From: Clostridia bacterium
GTDB lineage: Bacteria > Bacillota > Clostridia > Christensenellales > UBA1242
Length of the DNA stretch: 13,588 nucleotides
Assembly (NCBI GenBank): GCA_017473795.1
Contig: JAFUJE010000075.1
Coordinates: 1-13,588, forward strand
Reading direction: 5' to 3'
Part shown: one piece after another, positions 209-13,588 of the stretch
Layout of the letters: each line of letters begins with the position of its first letter
Numbering within the stretch: position 1 is the stretch's first letter
Made by a program: the position numbers and the translations under genes
Notes under the pieces: generated by a model
The model's input: the letters and a program-made list of their open reading frames with translations, nothing else
What the model was told of the DNA's origin: nothing
Database searches by the model: none

Positions 209-224
209 TGTTTAACGTTAAACA
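209..224. promoter_or_regulatory. parS: parS-like site 1 (perfect palindrome)
   Basis: TGTTTAACGTTAAACA, a perfect 16-bp palindrome that extends to 24 bp of perfect symmetry (205-228). It matches the classic parS TGTTTCACGTGAAACA at 14 of 16 positions, differing at positions 6 and 11. It is presumed to be a ParB loading site because parB lies downstream. Confidence 0.88.
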
Positions 225-317
225 ATTTGCAAAATTATTAATTAAAACCGTTTGTTGATTGTGTTTTTTAGGTGTGGTTTATTGCATATAAATAATGATG
301 GTATGGTTTGGATAAAA

Positions 318-333
318 TGTTTAACGTTAAACT
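318..333. promoter_or_regulatory. parS: parS-like site 2
   Basis: TGTTTAACGTTAAACT, identical to site 1 except for the last base. The symmetric core of 14 bp is intact. Confidence 0.82.
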
Positions 334-374
334 TTTTTGAAATAAATAATTTTGATGTGCCAATATGGACGGAT

Positions 375-390
375 TGTTTAACGTCAAACA
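375..390. promoter_or_regulatory. parS: parS-like site 3
   Basis: TGTTTAACGTCAAACA. One half-site carries C instead of T at position 11; the ATTG/CAAT flanks of site 1 are kept. Confidence 0.85.
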
Positions 391-427
391 ATTTATATGA
401 AAAGCGTTCCGTTTATGTAAGGCTTAT

Positions 428-443
428 TGTTTAACGTCAAACA
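428..443. promoter_or_regulatory. parS: parS-like site 4
   Basis: TGTTTAACGTCAAACA, identical to site 3 and with the same ATTG/CAAT flanks. Confidence 0.85.
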
Positions 444-495
444 ATTTTCTTTCGCTAGTTTTGTATTCATTTAACCAAATATAATTATTCCTAAT

Positions 496-511
496 TGTTT
501 AACGTTAAACA
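496..511. promoter_or_regulatory. parS: parS-like site 5
   Basis: TGTTTAACGTTAAACA, identical to site 1 over all 16 bases. Confidence 0.87.
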
Positions 512-746
512 TTTTTTAGGTTAAATTGTTGGTGATAAACCCACCGAGTTATTTACAAGCTAAATGTTAAAAACTTAGCACCGGCTTTCTTGTGTTGTTT
601 GCGGGTGGCTGTGGGTATGTAGGTTTTGCTGTAAAAGTTGTTTACATTATGAATGTTAATAACTAATTACCGTATATTTCGTATAAATTATTAACCAAAT
701 TTTTTGCTGGTAAGCAAATGGGTATTTTGTGGATTGATTGATAAAT

Positions 747-762
747 TGTTTGACGTTAAACA
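747..762. promoter_or_regulatory. parS: parS-like site 6, next to the parB promoter
   Basis: TGTTTGACGTTAAACA with ATTG/CAAT flanks. It carries G at position 6, the mirror image of the C at position 11 in sites 3 and 4. It ends 5 bp upstream of the proposed parB -35 hexamer, so ParB bound here could touch RNA polymerase and regulate its own gene. Confidence 0.85.
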
Positions 763-802: not shown

Positions 803-1726
803 ATGGCAGAAAAAAAATTAGGAAAAGGTTTGGGGGCTTTGTTTGGTAATATCGTATTAGACGATGAATTAACACCAATCAATGAACCTACAGAAAAAGA
901 ACAACAAAAAACTGTAAAAAGCGTTAATCAAGAAGTTAATGATGATGGCGTACAACAAATTGCGATTGCAATGATTGATAATAATGTTGACCAACCACGT
1001 AAAGTTTTTAACCAAGAAGCCTTGCGTGAATTAGCGGAAAGTATTCAAACGTATGGTGTCGTACAACCAATTTTGGTAACACCGGTAGGCAACCGCTTTA
1101 TGATTGTGGCGGGTGAACGTCGTTGGCGTGCCGCACGTATGGCAGGTTTAGTAGAAATTCCTGCTGTGATTAAAAAGTTTAATCCGAAACAAATTGCCGA
1201 AATTGCGATTATTGAAAACTTACAACGTGCCGATTTGAATGAAATTGAATTGGCTTTGGGAATTAAAAAGTTAATGGACGAACACAAATTGACCCAAGAA
1301 AAAGTGGCAGAGCGTTTGTCAAAGCCACGCAGTACGATTGCAAATTCCTTGCGTCTGTTAAGTTTGCCACAAGAAATTCAACAGTACATTAGCAAGCAAG
1401 AATTGACGGCTGGTCATGCGATTCGTTTATTGGGTGTGGCTGATGAACAAAAACAAATTGAATATGCACGCCGTGCTGTAAACGAAAACTTGTCCGTGCG
1501 TGCCTTGGGCGAGTTGATTGAAGGTAAGATGCCAACCTTTGCGTCGGGAAAATCTAAACCTGCCAAAGCCCCTGAAATCCGTGAACAAGAAAAAATCTTG
1601 TCTCGTGCGATTGGTACTAAAGTTAAAATTGATGGTACTTTGGAACGGGGTAAGGTCGTTATCGCTTATTATGCCGCAGAAGAATTGGAAAGAGTGGTAA
1701 ATTACTTGAAAAACCACAAGATATAG
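803..1726 (+). CDS. parB: Chromosome-partitioning protein ParB (Spo0J type)
   Basis: This 307-residue CTP-dependent DNA clamp loads at parS and spreads along origin-proximal DNA to organise and segregate it with ParA and SMC. The ATG at 803 gives the typical ParB start (MAEKKLGKGLGALFG). An in-frame upstream start at 704 would add 33 atypical residues running through parS site 6 and the promoter, so I reject it. Visible motifs are DQPRKVF (about 63-69), the nucleotide box GERRWRA (104-110), the ENLQRADLNEIE box (138-149) and the helix-turn-helix (about 163-190, ending in NSLRLLSLP). The C-terminal dimerisation segment ends in a helical region. Length is normal for the family. The gene comes before parA, the reverse of the common soj-spo0J order, and has its own leaderless-type promoter. 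Confidence 0.97.
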   Translation: MAEKKLGKGLGALFGNIVLDDELTPINEPTEKEQQKTVKSVNQEVNDDGVQQIAIAMIDNNVDQPRKVFNQEALRELAESIQTYGVVQPILVTPVGNRFMIVAGERRWRAARMAGLVEIPAVIKKFNPKQIAEIAIIENLQRADLNEIELALGIKKLMDEHKLTQEKVAERLSKPRSTIANSLRLLSLPQEIQQYISKQELTAGHAIRLLGVADEQKQIEYARRAVNENLSVRALGELIEGKMPTFASGKSKPAKAPEIREQEKILSRAIGTKVKIDGTLERGKVVIAYYAAEELERVVNYLKNHKI

Positions 1727-1848: not shown

Positions 1849-2622
1849 ATGGGAAAAGTCGTTGCAGTAGCACTACAAAAAGGCGGGGTTGGGAAGACTA
1901 CCACCTGTATTAATTTGGCTGCATACTTAGCACATGATTTAGGAAAAAAAGTTTTAATTGTGGATTTCGATCCGCAACATAATGCCAGCAGTGGTGTCGG
2001 TGTTGAAGTTACTGATAAAACTGTTTCGGTTTATAATGTAATGTGTGACCAAGTTGATCCGACCGATGCGATTCAATTAACTTCGGTCAAAGGCTTGGAA
2101 ATTTTACCAGCGACTCAAGATTTAGTCGGTGCCGAAATTGAATTGGTACGCATGAGTGGTCGTGAACAAATTTTGCGAAATTGCTTGAATAAAATTAAGG
2201 ATAGTTATGATTATATCTTTATTGACTGTCCACCGACTTTGACGTTGCTGACGGTTAATGCTTTGACGGCAGCCGATACGGTAATTATTCCGATTCTGTG
2301 TGAATACTTTGCGTTGGAAGGTATCAGCCAATTAGTGCGTGCTATCCGTTTGGTGAAGAAACAAGGCTTGAACCCGAACATTGATATTGAAGGTGTGTTG
2401 GTAACAATGATGACTCATAACCTATTGACACAACAAGTGCAAGCCGAATTGTTAAAATTCTTTGGTCGTAAAGTTTTCAACACTAAAATTCCACGTAACG
2501 TACGTTTGGCGGAAGCACCCAGTTACGGGAAACCAATTTGTCTTTATGATGCCAAATGTCCGGGCGCAAAAGCTTACCGTGAATTGGCGTTTGAATTTAT
2601 GAAGAGGCAACGTACCGAATGA
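1849..2622 (+). CDS. parA: Chromosome-partitioning ATPase ParA (Soj type)
   Basis: This 257-residue deviant-Walker ATPase dimerises on ATP, binds the nucleoid non-specifically and is stimulated by ParB to move origin regions. Visible motifs are the Walker A KGGVGKTTT (11-19) with both lysines, the A' motif VDFDPQ (39-43, followed by HNAS rather than the commoner GNAS) and Walker B DYIFIDCPP (121-129, Asp126). The CEYFALEGISQL segment and the late KIPRNVRLAEAPSYGKP segment are typical of Soj/ParA. There is no N-terminal DNA-binding extension, so it is the chromosomal short type. The start follows a good Shine-Dalgarno. Its stop overlaps the dnaX start (ATGA), so it heads the parA-dnaX-ybaB-gltX run. 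Confidence 0.97.
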   Translation: MGKVVAVALQKGGVGKTTTCINLAAYLAHDLGKKVLIVDFDPQHNASSGVGVEVTDKTVSVYNVMCDQVDPTDAIQLTSVKGLEILPATQDLVGAEIELVRMSGREQILRNCLNKIKDSYDYIFIDCPPTLTLLTVNALTAADTVIIPILCEYFALEGISQLVRAIRLVKKQGLNPNIDIEGVLVTMMTHNLLTQQVQAELLKFFGRKVFNTKIPRNVRLAEAPSYGKPICLYDAKCPGAKAYRELAFEFMKRQRTE

Positions 2623-3949: not shown

Positions 3950-4252
3950 ATGAGAAATTTTTCAATGGGTAACAACGGACAAATGGCGAACTTGATGAAA
4001 CAAGCCGAAGCCATGCAAAAACAAATGGAAAAAACCAAAGCCGAATTGGCAGAAACTGCAGTGGAAGCAACTGTCGGCGGTGGTATGGTAACTGCTTCGA
4101 TGTCGGGTGCTTACGAATTATTGGACTTGCACATTAAACCCGAAGTCGTGGATCCTGATGATGTGGAAACTACCGAAGATTTGGTTATTGCGGTGATTAA
4201 TGAATGTTTGCGTCAGGTAACGGAGTTGCGTAATGAAAAATTACCACTCTAA
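3950..4252 (+). CDS. ybaB: YbaB/EbfC family nucleoid-associated protein
   Basis: This protein of 100 residues belongs to a small DNA-binding family, usually encoded next to dnaX and recR, that binds DNA as a dimer. The N-terminal helix NLMKQAEAMQKQMEKTKAEL, the following VEATVGGGMVTASMSGAYEL strand region and the acidic DPDDVETTEDLVIAVINE segment follow the family pattern. The length is normal. The ATG at 3950 is used because it is the first after the dnaX tail; an ATG at 3965 (MGNNGQ) is an alternative. No Shine-Dalgarno is visible. A possible -10 TAAACT (3938-3943) ends 6 nt before the ATG with TTGGCG 17 nt further up, which would fit a leaderless start, but this is weak. recR, the usual next gene, is absent and gltX follows. 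Confidence 0.92.
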   Translation: MRNFSMGNNGQMANLMKQAEAMQKQMEKTKAELAETAVEATVGGGMVTASMSGAYELLDLHIKPEVVDPDDVETTEDLVIAVINECLRQVTELRNEKLPL

Positions 4253-5678
4253 CCGTAAGCCGGACGGCTATCGTATTGCCCCCAGTCCAACGGGTTATGT
4301 TCATCTTGGTACGGTGGGTATGGCAGTGGTAAATTCTTATCTGGCTCGCCAAAGCGGTGGACGTTTTTATCTGCGCATTGAAGATACGGATAGTAAACGT
4401 TATGTCGCCGATGCGATTGAAAAGATGAACCAAACTTTTGATTTTTTTGACATTAAATTTGCGGAAACTTATGTACAAAGTGAAAGGGCTGCAATTTACC
4501 AACAGTATGCTTTGGATTTGGTCAAGCAAGGTAAGGCTTATTATTGTTTCTGTACCGAAGATGATTTAGCCACTATGCGGGAGCAACAAGTAAAAAATAA
4601 TGAACCAACGGGCTATTATGGTCAATATGCTAAGTGCCGTCATCTGAGTCCGGAAGAAGTGCAAAAACGTTTGGACGCCGGACAGCCGTACGTGATTCGT
4701 GCCAACTTTGGCTACCAAGATTGGGGCGAACGCATTACTTTTACCGATGCCGGTCGTGGCGAAATTGCTTTACCGCCACAAGTGAATGACCCGATTATTT
4801 TGAAAGCCAATGGTTTGCCTCCTTATAATTTGGCGCACGTGATTGATGATACTTTAATGGGAACGGCTTTAGTTGTGCGTGGGGAAGAATGGTTAATTTC
4901 GACGGCGGAACATATGCAGTTGTGTGATTTGTTGGGATTTCCACGTTTACAATATTTGCATATGCCGACCATTAATATTGAAGAAAATGGTAAAAAACGT
5001 AAATTGTCAAAACGTAAAGACCCACAAGCTTTGGTTATGAACTTGGTTAATGCCGGTTATCCACGTGATGCCATCTTTGAATATCTGTTGACCATTTACA
5101 ACAGTGATTTTGAGTTGTGGCGGACGGCTAACCCATTGGCTCCCTTGACTGATTTTGAATTTAAGATTAGTAAAGTGGGTACTAACAATCCTTTGTTCGA
5201 TTTACCCAAATTTAACGATATTGCGAAAAATGTTTGGGCTCGATACGACCATGCAACTGTGGTTAAAATGTTTAACGCTTGGGATTGGCAAAAATTGCCG
5301 GGAATTAATCCGGTGATTAAAAGTCGGATTGAAGCCATGTTGGGTGTCGAACGTGGTGGCGAACGTCCCCGTAAAGATTTGACGAAGTTGGAAGATATCC
5401 CCGAATTGTATAGTTATGTCTGGGACGATATTCAAGTAGACGGTCAAAACTTGGACGGTACGTTGTTAAAAAAATATGCCACAATTTATGATGCCAACGA
5501 TGATAAAGAAACTTGGTGGCAAAAAATTAAAGATATGGCACCGGATAAACCGGCTTTGCGGAACTTGACCGCTCAAATTCGTTTGGCAGTTACCGGTAAA
5601 ACGAATACGCCAGATTTGTGGTCACTGTGTCGTGTCTTGGGAAATGATTTGGTTAAAGCCCGTTTGACCCGCTGGTAA
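4233..5678 (+). CDS. gltX: Glutamate--tRNA ligase
   Basis: This class I aminoacyl-tRNA synthetase (481 residues) charges tRNA-Glu with glutamate in the cytoplasm. The HIGH-type signature is APSPTGYVHLG (16-26) and the KMSKS-type loop is KLSKR (257-261). LRIEDTD (47-53) contacts the amino acid. A probable zinc site is formed by Cys105, Cys107, Cys135 and His137 (CxC...CxH). The C-terminal helical anticodon-binding part is present, and the length fits bacterial GluRS. The gene overlaps ybaB by 20 bp with a GGAG Shine-Dalgarno 7 nt before the ATG. GTVGMAVVN, where many GluRS have a G-x-x-R-T-A-L-x-N pattern, marks a somewhat divergent copy. Whether it also charges tRNA-Gln cannot be told from sequence. 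Confidence 0.96.
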   Translation: MKNYHSNRKPDGYRIAPSPTGYVHLGTVGMAVVNSYLARQSGGRFYLRIEDTDSKRYVADAIEKMNQTFDFFDIKFAETYVQSERAAIYQQYALDLVKQGKAYYCFCTEDDLATMREQQVKNNEPTGYYGQYAKCRHLSPEEVQKRLDAGQPYVIRANFGYQDWGERITFTDAGRGEIALPPQVNDPIILKANGLPPYNLAHVIDDTLMGTALVVRGEEWLISTAEHMQLCDLLGFPRLQYLHMPTINIEENGKKRKLSKRKDPQALVMNLVNAGYPRDAIFEYLLTIYNSDFELWRTANPLAPLTDFEFKISKVGTNNPLFDLPKFNDIAKNVWARYDHATVVKMFNAWDWQKLPGINPVIKSRIEAMLGVERGGERPRKDLTKLEDIPELYSYVWDDIQVDGQNLDGTLLKKYATIYDANDDKETWWQKIKDMAPDKPALRNLTAQIRLAVTGKTNTPDLWSLCRVLGNDLVKARLTRW

Positions 5679-8408: not shown

Positions 8409-8428
8409 AAGCCCCAAGGGCTTTTTTT
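8409..8428. terminator. Bidirectional rho-independent terminator
   Basis: AAGCCC (8409-8414), loop CAA, GGGCTT (8418-8423) then a T-run to 8428. On the minus strand the same hairpin is followed by CTTTTTAT. It separates the acidic-tail gene from the convergent spoIVB gene, whose stop codon (8427-8429) overlaps the T-run. Confidence 0.9.
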
Positions 8429-9554
8429 AATGGGCGATAAAATCAATGTACAAAGCGTAACCTTTGGCGGGGTCGTGGGTCAGGGCGTGGGTTAAGGCGC
8501 CGACCAAGTGACCGTTTTGGATAATGGGACTGCCACTCATGCCGTGGACAATGCCACCGGTAGTGTCTAGTAACCGTGGGTCTGTGATGCGGATAACCAT
8601 GGATTTATCTTGCCGGCGGTTTTGGTAGCGGGTTTTTAAAATTTCGCAGTCAAATTCTTCCACGGTAACTCCGTCGAGCGAAGTGCGAATTGTGGCTTTG
8701 CCGGGTTTTACGTGGTACCGGGTCGCAACGGGCATGGTTGTGGTTGTACTGGCGAGAATGGTACTGTTGGGTTTGAAGCAACCGGTAATGCCAAATTCGG
8801 TGCCTTGGGTAATACTGCCTTGACTGGTCGAGTTGGCGGGGATTGAACTCTGTAAAACGCCAGTTTGTTTGCCCTGAGTTTTGACGATACCGTAAGTTTT
8901 GACGGCATGAATTTCACCGCCACATAAATCCATGGTGGTGCCGGTAGCAAAATCGGTCATTTGGTGACCAAGGGCAGAAAATTGATTATTTTCTGGATTG
9001 ATAAAAGTCAGAATGCCGACGCCGTTTGTGTCATCACGTAAATTGACATCTTGGTTTAAGTTTAATGTGCGTTTTAGTTTGGTGCCGTTGCGGATTAAAG
9101 TTAGGGTAATTTGGTCTTTGTGGGCGGTGGCAGTCGCAAAATCTTGAGTGGTTTGGACGGGAAGATTGTCAACTGATTTAATGATGTCGCCTTGACGCAA
9201 AGTTTTATCCGGGGTGTCATTGGTAACTAAAAGTCCGTCAATTTCTCCGGTAATGCCAATGGGTAAACCGCCGACCAAGATTGTATCAAAAGGTAAAATG
9301 TCAACCAGTACTTTTTTAATCGGAATTAAGCCGAGTAATTTTATCGTAATATATTTTTCGGTGTCGGTATCCGTACCGGTTAAACTGTTCGGTTTGACAT
9401 CGGCACGGGCAGCATATTCACTGGGTGTCAAGACAATGCGGTCGGGGGTAGTAATTCCTTGCACAAAAGGCACAATAAAAAAAGCATAAAGGCTGAACGC
9501 AAGAACGCTAAAACAAAGACTGCGGATTAATGGTAAATGTGATTTGATTTTCAT
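8427..9554 (-). CDS. spoIVB: SpoIVB-type serine peptidase (family S55) with PDZ domain
   Basis: In spore formers, SpoIVB is exported from the forespore and cleaves SpoIVFA, which activates pro-sigma-K processing. The product (375 residues) has one N-terminal membrane anchor (about 10-33). A PDZ-like region (about 92-165, containing QGDIIKSVDNLPV) is followed by the S55 peptidase domain. The catalytic set is present: His197 in SALGH, Asp325 in ITDPRLL and Ser340 in HGMSGSPI. The 15-residue Asp-Ser spacing and about 143-residue His-Ser spacing agree with the residues known in B. subtilis (His236, Asp363, Ser378). The end is typical (VGALTHALTHDPAKGYALYI). It is divergent from the spoIIM-like gene with 38 bp between start codons and convergent with the acidic-tail gene. 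Non-sporulating relatives can also keep S55 peptidases, so sporulation is inferred, not shown. Confidence 0.93.
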   Translation of the reverse strand: MKIKSHLPLIRSLCFSVLAFSLYAFFIVPFVQGITTPDRIVLTPSEYAARADVKPNSLTGTDTDTEKYITIKLLGLIPIKKVLVDILPFDTILVGGLPIGITGEIDGLLVTNDTPDKTLRQGDIIKSVDNLPVQTTQDFATATAHKDQITLTLIRNGTKLKRTLNLNQDVNLRDDTNGVGILTFINPENNQFSALGHQMTDFATGTTMDLCGGEIHAVKTYGIVKTQGKQTGVLQSSIPANSTSQGSITQGTEFGITGCFKPNSTILASTTTTMPVATRYHVKPGKATIRTSLDGVTVEEFDCEILKTRYQNRRQDKSMVIRITDPRLLDTTGGIVHGMSGSPIIQNGHLVGALTHALTHDPAKGYALYIDFIAH

Positions 9555-11689: not shown

Positions 11690-12682
11690 ATGAAATTAAA
11701 AACTTTTTCGTGTGATTTAAAGTCAAGTGATTTTAATTCAAAATATTTGCGGGATCGTCACTTCCAAATTTTGGATGACATTTTAGGGTTGATTTTTCCG
11801 GATAAAAATCAAATTATTGCTAATTTAAAAACCTTAAAACGTTCGGATAAACGTCAACGTTTTGATAAAGATGGTTTACCAATCGAAAATGATTTTTTAT
11901 TTGAATATAATCAAAAAACTTTATGTTTTTTTTCACGTAGCCCAGAGGTTTTAGTTAAATATATTAACAAAATTTTAAAAGAAATTCGGGCGGGACAAGT
12001 TGCTAATCAGTCTCGTGAAAATAATCAGCCAGTGCAAAAAATTCCATTTATTGATGAAGATGTTATTATTGATTACATTAACAAATCTGAAAACTTTAAA
12101 AAGCGCATGGATGAATATGAATTCACGGTTGTGACGGAATTAATTAATTCTGCTTTGGATGAAAATGTAGATTCCTTCTGTATTTCAAGAGAACAAAAAA
12201 TGAAAATGGCGAAATACTCGGATTATGACGAAGTGTTCCGTAATCGGATTATCTCAGCCGTAGATTTTATGGGAATGGGAACAGATTTCGCTGAGGATTG
12301 TTTGGAAATACGTCGTGATTTGTGGTTAGAAAATGTGCGCCAAAAAACTTTCGCAAATAATATTTGTCGTGCTCATGCGAATAAAATTAACCAGCAAAAG
12401 GTATTCTTAAAAGAACAAAAACCTGAGTTATTTCAGGATTTACTGGGTTTACGTGAATCGGTTTATCAATCTTGGTGTACTTTACGGGAGCAAGAATATT
12501 GTCGCAAACATCATAAAGTTGTTAAAAAATGGCGTGAAAATGATTCTGTTGCCCAGTTGTCACTGAAACAATTGGAAGATTTACGGTACAAAGTTTGTGA
12601 ACAAATGTCGTTGTATGAATTTGAAATGTTTAAAACGGTTACGATGCTGGACGCAAAAGACGACAGAAATATCTTGCAATAG
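11690..12682 (+). CDS. Uncharacterised protein, first of two tandem paralogs
   Basis: I do not recognise this soluble, mostly helical protein of 330 residues, rich in charged residues and without signal peptide or membrane helix. It shares a pattern with the next gene: both begin MKLK, and both have a helix ending in L-x-F-P (here ILGLIFP, 31-37) followed by a K/D-rich helix. Further shared blocks are LVKYINKILKEI (88-99 here), IIDYINKSENFKKRMDEYE (126-144) and DFMGMG (192-197), then LE and WLENVRQKTF (212-221). A C-terminal extension (about 240-330) is helical with several Cys and His. Leaderless-type promoter, no Shine-Dalgarno. Codon use is more AT-rich than in the housekeeping genes to the left. 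No enzyme motif is evident. Confidence 0.85.
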   Translation: MKLKTFSCDLKSSDFNSKYLRDRHFQILDDILGLIFPDKNQIIANLKTLKRSDKRQRFDKDGLPIENDFLFEYNQKTLCFFSRSPEVLVKYINKILKEIRAGQVANQSRENNQPVQKIPFIDEDVIIDYINKSENFKKRMDEYEFTVVTELINSALDENVDSFCISREQKMKMAKYSDYDEVFRNRIISAVDFMGMGTDFAEDCLEIRRDLWLENVRQKTFANNICRAHANKINQQKVFLKEQKPELFQDLLGLRESVYQSWCTLREQEYCRKHHKVVKKWRENDSVAQLSLKQLEDLRYKVCEQMSLYEFEMFKTVTMLDAKDDRNILQ

Positions 12683-12823: not shown

Positions 12824-13588
12824 ATGAAATTAAAACAATTTTTATCGAACAAATTCAAGGAACATGAATTGAAAAGGGAGCAAAATGAAGCTAAAAAAAA
12901 TGCTTTTTTGTTCATGGATAAATTTCTCTCTGATTTATTTCCGACAGATGACAAAGAAATTTTGCAATCATTAAAGGATATTGAAATTTCAAGGTCAAAA
13001 ATTATGCTAAATCTTGCAAAAAAATGTAATAATCCCTATGCCTATTTTCAAGAACTATATCGTGAAGAACGTGCTTTTAAGATGGCGGATGAAGCATCTC
13101 GAGCAAGAAATTATGACAGTAGTCGGATAATTTATCATGTGCGTGATAATCAATGGTTGGTAGAATATATAAGAAGTTATGTTGAAAAAGTTACATATAA
13201 TACAATTGTCATTCCGTCTTCGACAATCAATGATTATGTTGAAAATTCACCTAAATTTAACCAACGCCGTAACCAATACGAAAAAGCTTTAGTAAAAAAC
13301 TACATCGAATACTATATGAAAGACGGTGGTTATGTTGATAACGAAAAACGCAAATCAAGGAAAGAAAATCTTTCTGTTGAAAGTTTATATACAGACGTAC
13401 TTAATGATATGGTATTTTTAGGGCTTGATCGACATAATGTTGAACTTGGTTTAGAATTAAATGCTGACTACTGGCGTGAACGTTTGAAAAGCGAAAGTTT
13501 CTTTAATTTGTTCAAAAACGATAATCTACTTGCTTTGAGTGAATTTGATCATGATCGAGCAGTTAACTTGCATAATCAAAAATATGCA
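12824..13588 (+). CDS. Uncharacterised protein, second tandem paralog (3' end outside window)
   Basis: The frame from the ATG at 12824 stays open for 255 codons to the window edge, so the C-terminus is missing. It begins MKLKQFLSNKFKEHELKREQ and is charged and helical, without signal peptide or membrane helix. Blocks shared with the first paralog are FLSDLFP (34-40), EILQSLKDIEISRSK (45-59), WLVEYIRSYVEKV (111-123), INDYVENSPKFNQRRNQYE (135-153), MVFLGLD (196-202) and LELNADYWRERLKSESF (210-226). Identity is low but order and spacing are kept, so they are diverged duplicates. AGA/AGG arginine codons are more frequent here than in the housekeeping genes, suggesting a different history or relaxed selection. 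Function unknown. Confidence 0.85.
   Translation, partial: MKLKQFLSNKFKEHELKREQNEAKKNAFLFMDKFLSDLFPTDDKEILQSLKDIEISRSKIMLNLAKKCNNPYAYFQELYREERAFKMADEASRARNYDSSRIIYHVRDNQWLVEYIRSYVEKVTYNTIVIPSSTINDYVENSPKFNQRRNQYEKALVKNYIEYYMKDGGYVDNEKRKSRKENLSVESLYTDVLNDMVFLGLDRHNVELGLELNADYWRERLKSESFFNLFKNDNLLALSEFDHDRAVNLHNQKYA

Follow-up and report, generated by a model that had tools for sequence, protein, structure and literature searches.

Altered parS-like sites beside parB in a genus of Clostridia, and a ParB reader that appears to have changed with them

The DNA analysed here (the window) is a stretch of 13,588 nucleotides from contig JAFUJE010000075.1 of a Clostridia bacterium. It carries parB and parA on the forward strand, and the intergenic DNA upstream of parB holds six near-palindromes of 16 bp each within a span of 554 bp. 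The features on which our analysis is built are the following, where the codon positions are computed from the ATG at 803 and the residues in brackets follow Caulobacter ParB numbering, as do residues 172 and 204 throughout.

209-224, forward strand: parS-like site 1, TGTTTAACGTTAAACA; the palindrome reaches 24 bp
318-333, forward strand: parS-like site 2, TGTTTAACGTTAAACT; a single end mismatch (T, not A)
375-390, forward strand: parS-like site 3, TGTTTAACGTCAAACA
428-443, forward strand: parS-like site 4, TGTTTAACGTCAAACA
496-511, forward strand: parS-like site 5, TGTTTAACGTTAAACA
747-762, forward strand: parS-like site 6, TGTTTGACGTTAAACA; starts 56 bp 5' of the parB ATG
803-1726, forward strand: parB, 307 amino acids from the ATG at 803, with ParB_N, HTH_ParB and ParB_C domains
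1325-1327, forward strand: codon of Pro175 (Caulobacter Ser172, recognition helix region), placed by alignment and residue check
1421-1423, forward strand: codon of Ile207, ATT (Caulobacter Arg204), placed by alignment
1849-2622, forward strand: parA, 257 amino acids, Walker-type ATPase (KGGVGKTT)

The genes dnaX, ybaB, gltX, a Sua5-type gene and murB follow 3' of parA in this order, so that the setting is chromosomal and parA is adjacent to parB. ParB has the full domain set of a chromosomal ParABS protein (ParB_N, HTH_ParB and ParB_C); by sequence, an LG-rich motif, LGKGLGALF, stands near its N-terminus at residue 6 and a putative CTP-binding motif, GERRW, at residue 104. The classic DNA interface is missing from the protein: Arg204 and Ser172, which contact parS and are conserved across ParB and Noc according to PMC7383237, are replaced by Ile207 and Pro175. 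Structure prediction for the window ParB, with 33 of the 120 listed homologues supplied alongside it, gives the protein fold, for the protein alone. Directly after site 6, at 768-796, we noticed by eye the arrangement TTGCTT-N17-TACAAT, which ends 6 bp 5' of the parB ATG and is absent from the list returned by a promoter scanner. Similar TTGCTT boxes lie upstream in seven of nine other loci of the genus. This by-eye promoter suggests a leaderless parB mRNA, and autoregulation is possible.

The preliminary description had all six sites fitting TGTTTRACGTYAAACA, which is exact for five of them and fails at 318-333, where the last base is T and not A. Their position within 560 bp beside parB was given correctly, as they occupy 209-762 and parB comes next at 803-1726. 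The cluster is far denser than chance would produce: with up to two mismatches to TGTTTNACGTNAAACA the window has six matches, compared with a mean of 0.34 in 200 shuffles, the largest of which gave three, so that six were never reached. Position 6 is A or G and position 11 is T or C in all six sites, as had been described, and the classic pair C6/G11 is found in none. It had also been claimed that searching with the classic motif would overlook the whole cluster; this is true of an exact search, but at up to three mismatches the classic word recovers all six sites, five of them at two mismatches. Throughout the assembly to which the window belongs (660,066 bases, 78.48% complete) exact TGTTTNACGTNAAACA is confined to this cluster, and eight more matches, each at two mismatches, stand singly on eight other contigs, compared with three matches of a reversed control pattern. 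The exact classic parS does not occur in these 660,066 bases, and because the assembly is 78% complete its absence from the genome is less than certain.

The same picture is observed across the genus. Exact TGTTTNACGTNAAACA is present in eight of ten genus genomes with 30 matches in total, every one of which has A or G at position 6, and the remaining two genomes (G002 and G003) have TGTTTATCGTTAAACA, as written or as the complement, likewise of the A6/T11 type. A scan for TGTTYCACGTGRAACA, which takes in classic and C5-type parS, returned nothing from any of the ten, these being incomplete metagenome-assembled genomes. The altered form is thus fixed in the genus, and some sites combine A6 with G6, C11 or a changed position 7. 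In all ten genus loci a parS-like site starts 36-77 bp 5' of the parB ATG; a site no more than 200 bp 5' of the parB start is found in 10 of 10 genus loci and in 12 of the 109 non-genus loci with sites, where parB starts are first-ATG calls and may be off. ParB is present in all ten genomes, with an extra weak partial match in G007 and a match flagged with one TAA in G008. The gene dnaA is on the parB contig, about 7-38 kb away, in five of the eight genus genomes searched, and on a different contig in the window's own genome, G001 and G008. The 16-bp palindromes are therefore both clustered, with six in 554 bp, and close to the origin, judging by dnaA near parB in these five of eight genomes.

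Of 147 genomes in the wider family, 130 gave a ParB match (E up to 1e-30). Our comparison comprises 134 rows, that is, the window and 133 fetched loci, which include three more genus genomes and a second ParB of G016. Sites were called at up to one mismatch to TGTTNNNCGNNNAACA with at least six of eight mirrored pairs, and a core filter was added for the covariation counts. By these criteria forms with another core are under-counted (for example TGTTCTATATAGAACA in L127). A usable site was obtained in 118 of the 134 rows, and among the 16 dropped are some that end near a contig end. The other genera of the family mostly use TGTTTCACGTGAAACA or TGTTCCACGTGGAACA, hybrids between them, or sites whose core is altered; a majority of A at position 6 is limited to the window's genus, and a majority of T is seen in L107, L123 and L127. 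AT drift was considered as the cause and rejected, since the genus loci have a GC content of 0.37-0.50 (n=10) against a median of 0.30 in the other 124. Furthermore, C6 remains the majority base in 96 of the 100 loci that have sites and a GC content below the genus median.

The protein residues follow the site. The best 97 of the 120 listed ParB matches have Ile (89) or Leu (8) at residue 204 and Pro (87), Thr (9) or Asn (1) at residue 172, while the next 23 have Lys (17) or Arg (6) at residue 204. Comparison of the HTH region with relatives shows Ile or Leu at 204 together with Pro or Thr at 172 to be unique to the genus among the 134 family rows. At codon 204 the genus has ATT (7), ATC (2) or TTA (1), and eight Lys204 rows have AAA or AAG. 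Over the 118 loci, residue 204 and the majority base at position 5 pair as R/T 76, R/C 1, K/C 24, K/T 7, I/T 9 and L/T 1, and residue 172 and position 6 as S/C 100, P/A 9, T/A 1, P/T 1, G/T 2, N/C 3, Q/C 1 and S/G 1, the S/G row (L164) being a tie at position 6. Ranking all well-filled columns by normalised information places column 204 first for position 5 and column 172 first for position 6. For position 5, the value of column 204 was reached at that column in 1 of 1000 tree-aware simulations, and by the best of all columns in 24 of 1000; for position 6, that of column 172 was reached at that column in none of 1000, and by the best of all columns in 34 of 1000. Next for position 6 comes column 228 (1 of 1000 alone, 59 of 1000 over all columns), and column 204 is non-significant there after correction (20 of 1000 alone, 233 of 1000 over columns). 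The simulations ran on a quick ParB tree from which the recognition columns had been left out and whose long branches include L179, L118, L060, L107 and L054, and simulated traits were held within 50% of the observed count. After column correction the associations of 204 with position 5 and of 172 with position 6 are modestly significant; independent-pairs tests, with five and four supported pairs, are non-significant and have too few pairs to reach significance. Neither residue alone dictates the base, since C6 is retained in four loci with Asn172 or Gln172 and Lys204, and T5 is retained in 7 of 31 Lys204 loci. Against a strict rule for residue 172 stands also L119, which has Ser172 and, outside the counts, near-palindromes of the T6 type.

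On the ParB tree the ten genus rows form a single clade (SH-aLRT 91), and one well-supported branch (99) has on one side the genus, eight Lys204 rows and the long-branch L179, which has Arg204. A6 with Ile or Leu at 204 has a single evolutionary origin, and its pairing is thus unreplicated. Exact TGTTTRACGTYAAACA occurs as single sites in 2 of 395 other genomes of an order sample, in 0 of 390 genomes of a class sample and as single sites in 2 of 298 genomes of a phylum sample, with no second cluster in any of the three samples; these samples overlap in some genomes, and exact scans miss forms such as TGTTTATCGTTAAACA. A second origin of the A6 code was looked for in these exact scans and not found. 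The 18 viral stretches recovered carry one palindrome apiece, and the exact words TGTTTAACGTTAAACA and TTTAACGTTAAA have no occurrence in the literature searched.

Taken together, the data make it very likely that these six sites serve the genus as its chromosomal parS centromere and that both the site and its ParB reader have changed. On the DNA, C6/G11 became A6/T11 (at times with G6 or C11), and in the protein the conserved Arg204 and Ser172 were lost, leaving Ile207 and Pro175 in the window. As general amino-acid/base preferences, arginine would go with guanine, lysine with a GG step, and isoleucine and leucine with thymine. In a classic ParB, Arg204, which lies in the helix that follows the HTH, would read guanine at half-site positions 5-6, and the Lys204 of related genera would favour the GG step opposite C5C6. 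Ile or Leu at 204 would be unable to hold guanine and would instead pack against the thymine that pairs with A6, and residue 172 of the recognition helix would tune the fit. After loading, the protein should behave normally, that is, form the CTP clamp, spread, and support ParA-driven segregation of the origin region. For Burkholderia cenocepacia chromosome 1, PMC5450999 reports that ParB binding to the classic site falls to background when any symmetric pair except 1-16 and 5-12 is changed, and on this account A6/T11 should need an altered ParB. Site and ParB residues thus appear, as far as sequences can tell, to have evolved together, and the case for coevolution of the altered parS with ParB is a good one.

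One would argue that the sites are indeed parS, and that ParB has merely relaxed at position 6, so that the bases drifted and the classic site is still bound equally. The mixture of A6 with G6, C11 or an altered position 7 in some sites would fit this, and the loss of Arg204 could merely delete a contact. However, A stands at position 6 in the great majority of the genus half-sites despite the higher GC content of the genus, and none of the ten genus genomes has a site with C6 on both halves. Moreover, all of the best 97 of the 120 listed ParBs have Ile or Leu at residue 204, as though a hydrophobic contact were being selected for. We consider such drift under a relaxed reader improbable.

A rather different proposal is that another regulator uses the six sites as operators at the parB promoter and that the true parS lies elsewhere. 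Every site of the window is in the parB upstream region, one of them just 5' of the by-eye promoter, and the assembly is incomplete; yet the word departs from parS at positions 6 and 11 only, classic or C5-type sites surround parB in other genera, the ten genus genomes hold no classic site, and the ParB residues covary with the site. Operators of this kind are therefore very unlikely. The chance that the protein is a Noc-type paralogue with NBS-like sites is slighter still and practically negligible: the fold is common to Noc and ParB, but the Noc residues Q173, K179, K184 and R201 are absent (R176, S182, S187 and G204 in the window), TATTTCCCGGGAAATA at up to two mismatches is not in the window's own, incomplete assembly, and the gene adjoins parA.

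The proposed co-change of centromere and reader can be set against known systems. With classic chromosomal ParABS (TGTTTCACGTGAAACA) the genus shares the ParB domains, the adjacent parA, the clustered 16-bp palindromes near parB and, in relatives, a nearby dnaA; it differs by A6/T11 in place of C6/G11 and by a ParB that has neither Arg204 nor Ser172. C6 is found in 14 of 14 consensus sites of primary chromosomes in Table 1 of PMC7022226. The Pseudomonas/Myxococcus-type parS (TGTTCCACGTGGAACA/G) also deviates naturally from the classic word and in this family is found with Lys204, but it changes position 5, a change tolerated in vitro (PMC5450999), and keeps position 6. The ParB/Noc switch (Jalal et al. 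2020, PMC7383237) likewise keeps the fold and reaches a new word through changes in the HTH and the following helix. It works through residues 173, 179, 184 and 201 and positions 2 and 7, whereas the genus has changed residues 172 and 204, with positions 5 and 6 concerned. That the ParB/Noc split lies at positions 2 and 7, as the preliminary description held, agrees with that source, which numbers them 1 and 6 within the half-site. KorB contacts, and Noc contacts in PMC8429893, offer nothing usable for comparison. The shifted ParB-parS code proposed for the lineage is well supported at the level of sequence, with the lineage being one genus and the axis differing from that of ParB/Noc; further parS forms linked to Lys204 exist elsewhere in the family.

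We lean somewhat towards a more general view, in which ParB would have a second specificity axis apart from ParB/Noc, with 204 and 172 reading positions 5 and 6. The states in the family would be Arg204 with TGTTTCAC, Lys204 with TGTTCCAC and hybrids, and Ile/Leu204 with TGTTTAAC, and the path would run from Arg through Lys to Ile via tolerant Lys204, mixed-site intermediates, ending in a centromere orthogonal to the classic one. Such a path would fit the tree, as the genus is on the same side of the well-supported branch as the Lys204 lineages. Five loci (L060, L086, L093, L129 and L132) have Lys204 and mixed sites, for example TGTTTCACGTGGAACA six times in L132, and look like intermediates of the parS change.

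Few DNA words in bacteria are as conserved as parS, and a change in it must spread over several sites while segregation continues. A genus-wide change at position 6, together with two DNA-contacting residues and relatives with Lys204 and mixed sites, makes the co-change of a centromere and its reader directly testable. DNA labelling could also gain ParB-parS pairs that are orthogonal to the classic pair. Surveys by exact motif would score such genomes as having no parS. The genus would thus represent gut bacteria with small genomes and a putative altered variant of chromosomal ParABS.

Several minor observations were made along the way. In L056 (G005) 65-bp tandem units form two arrays, at 4224-4485 (4.0 copies) and 5015-5180 (2.6 copies), with a parS-like site per unit, and by eye the two arrays are mutually inverted. 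L012 (JAMPCO010000013.1) is titled Prevotella sp. and has a ParB 80% identical to that of the window; its title is probably wrong. In L160 a repeated family, TGTTTCGCGAGAAACA / TGTTTCTCGCGAAACA, lies upstream of parB and is a parS form with a different core. Within the window, adjoining open reading frames lie at 11690-12682, which has no Pfam match, and at 12824-13588. A SpoIVB-type S55 peptidase is encoded on the reverse strand at 8427-9554, and the genome measures about 0.7 Mb.
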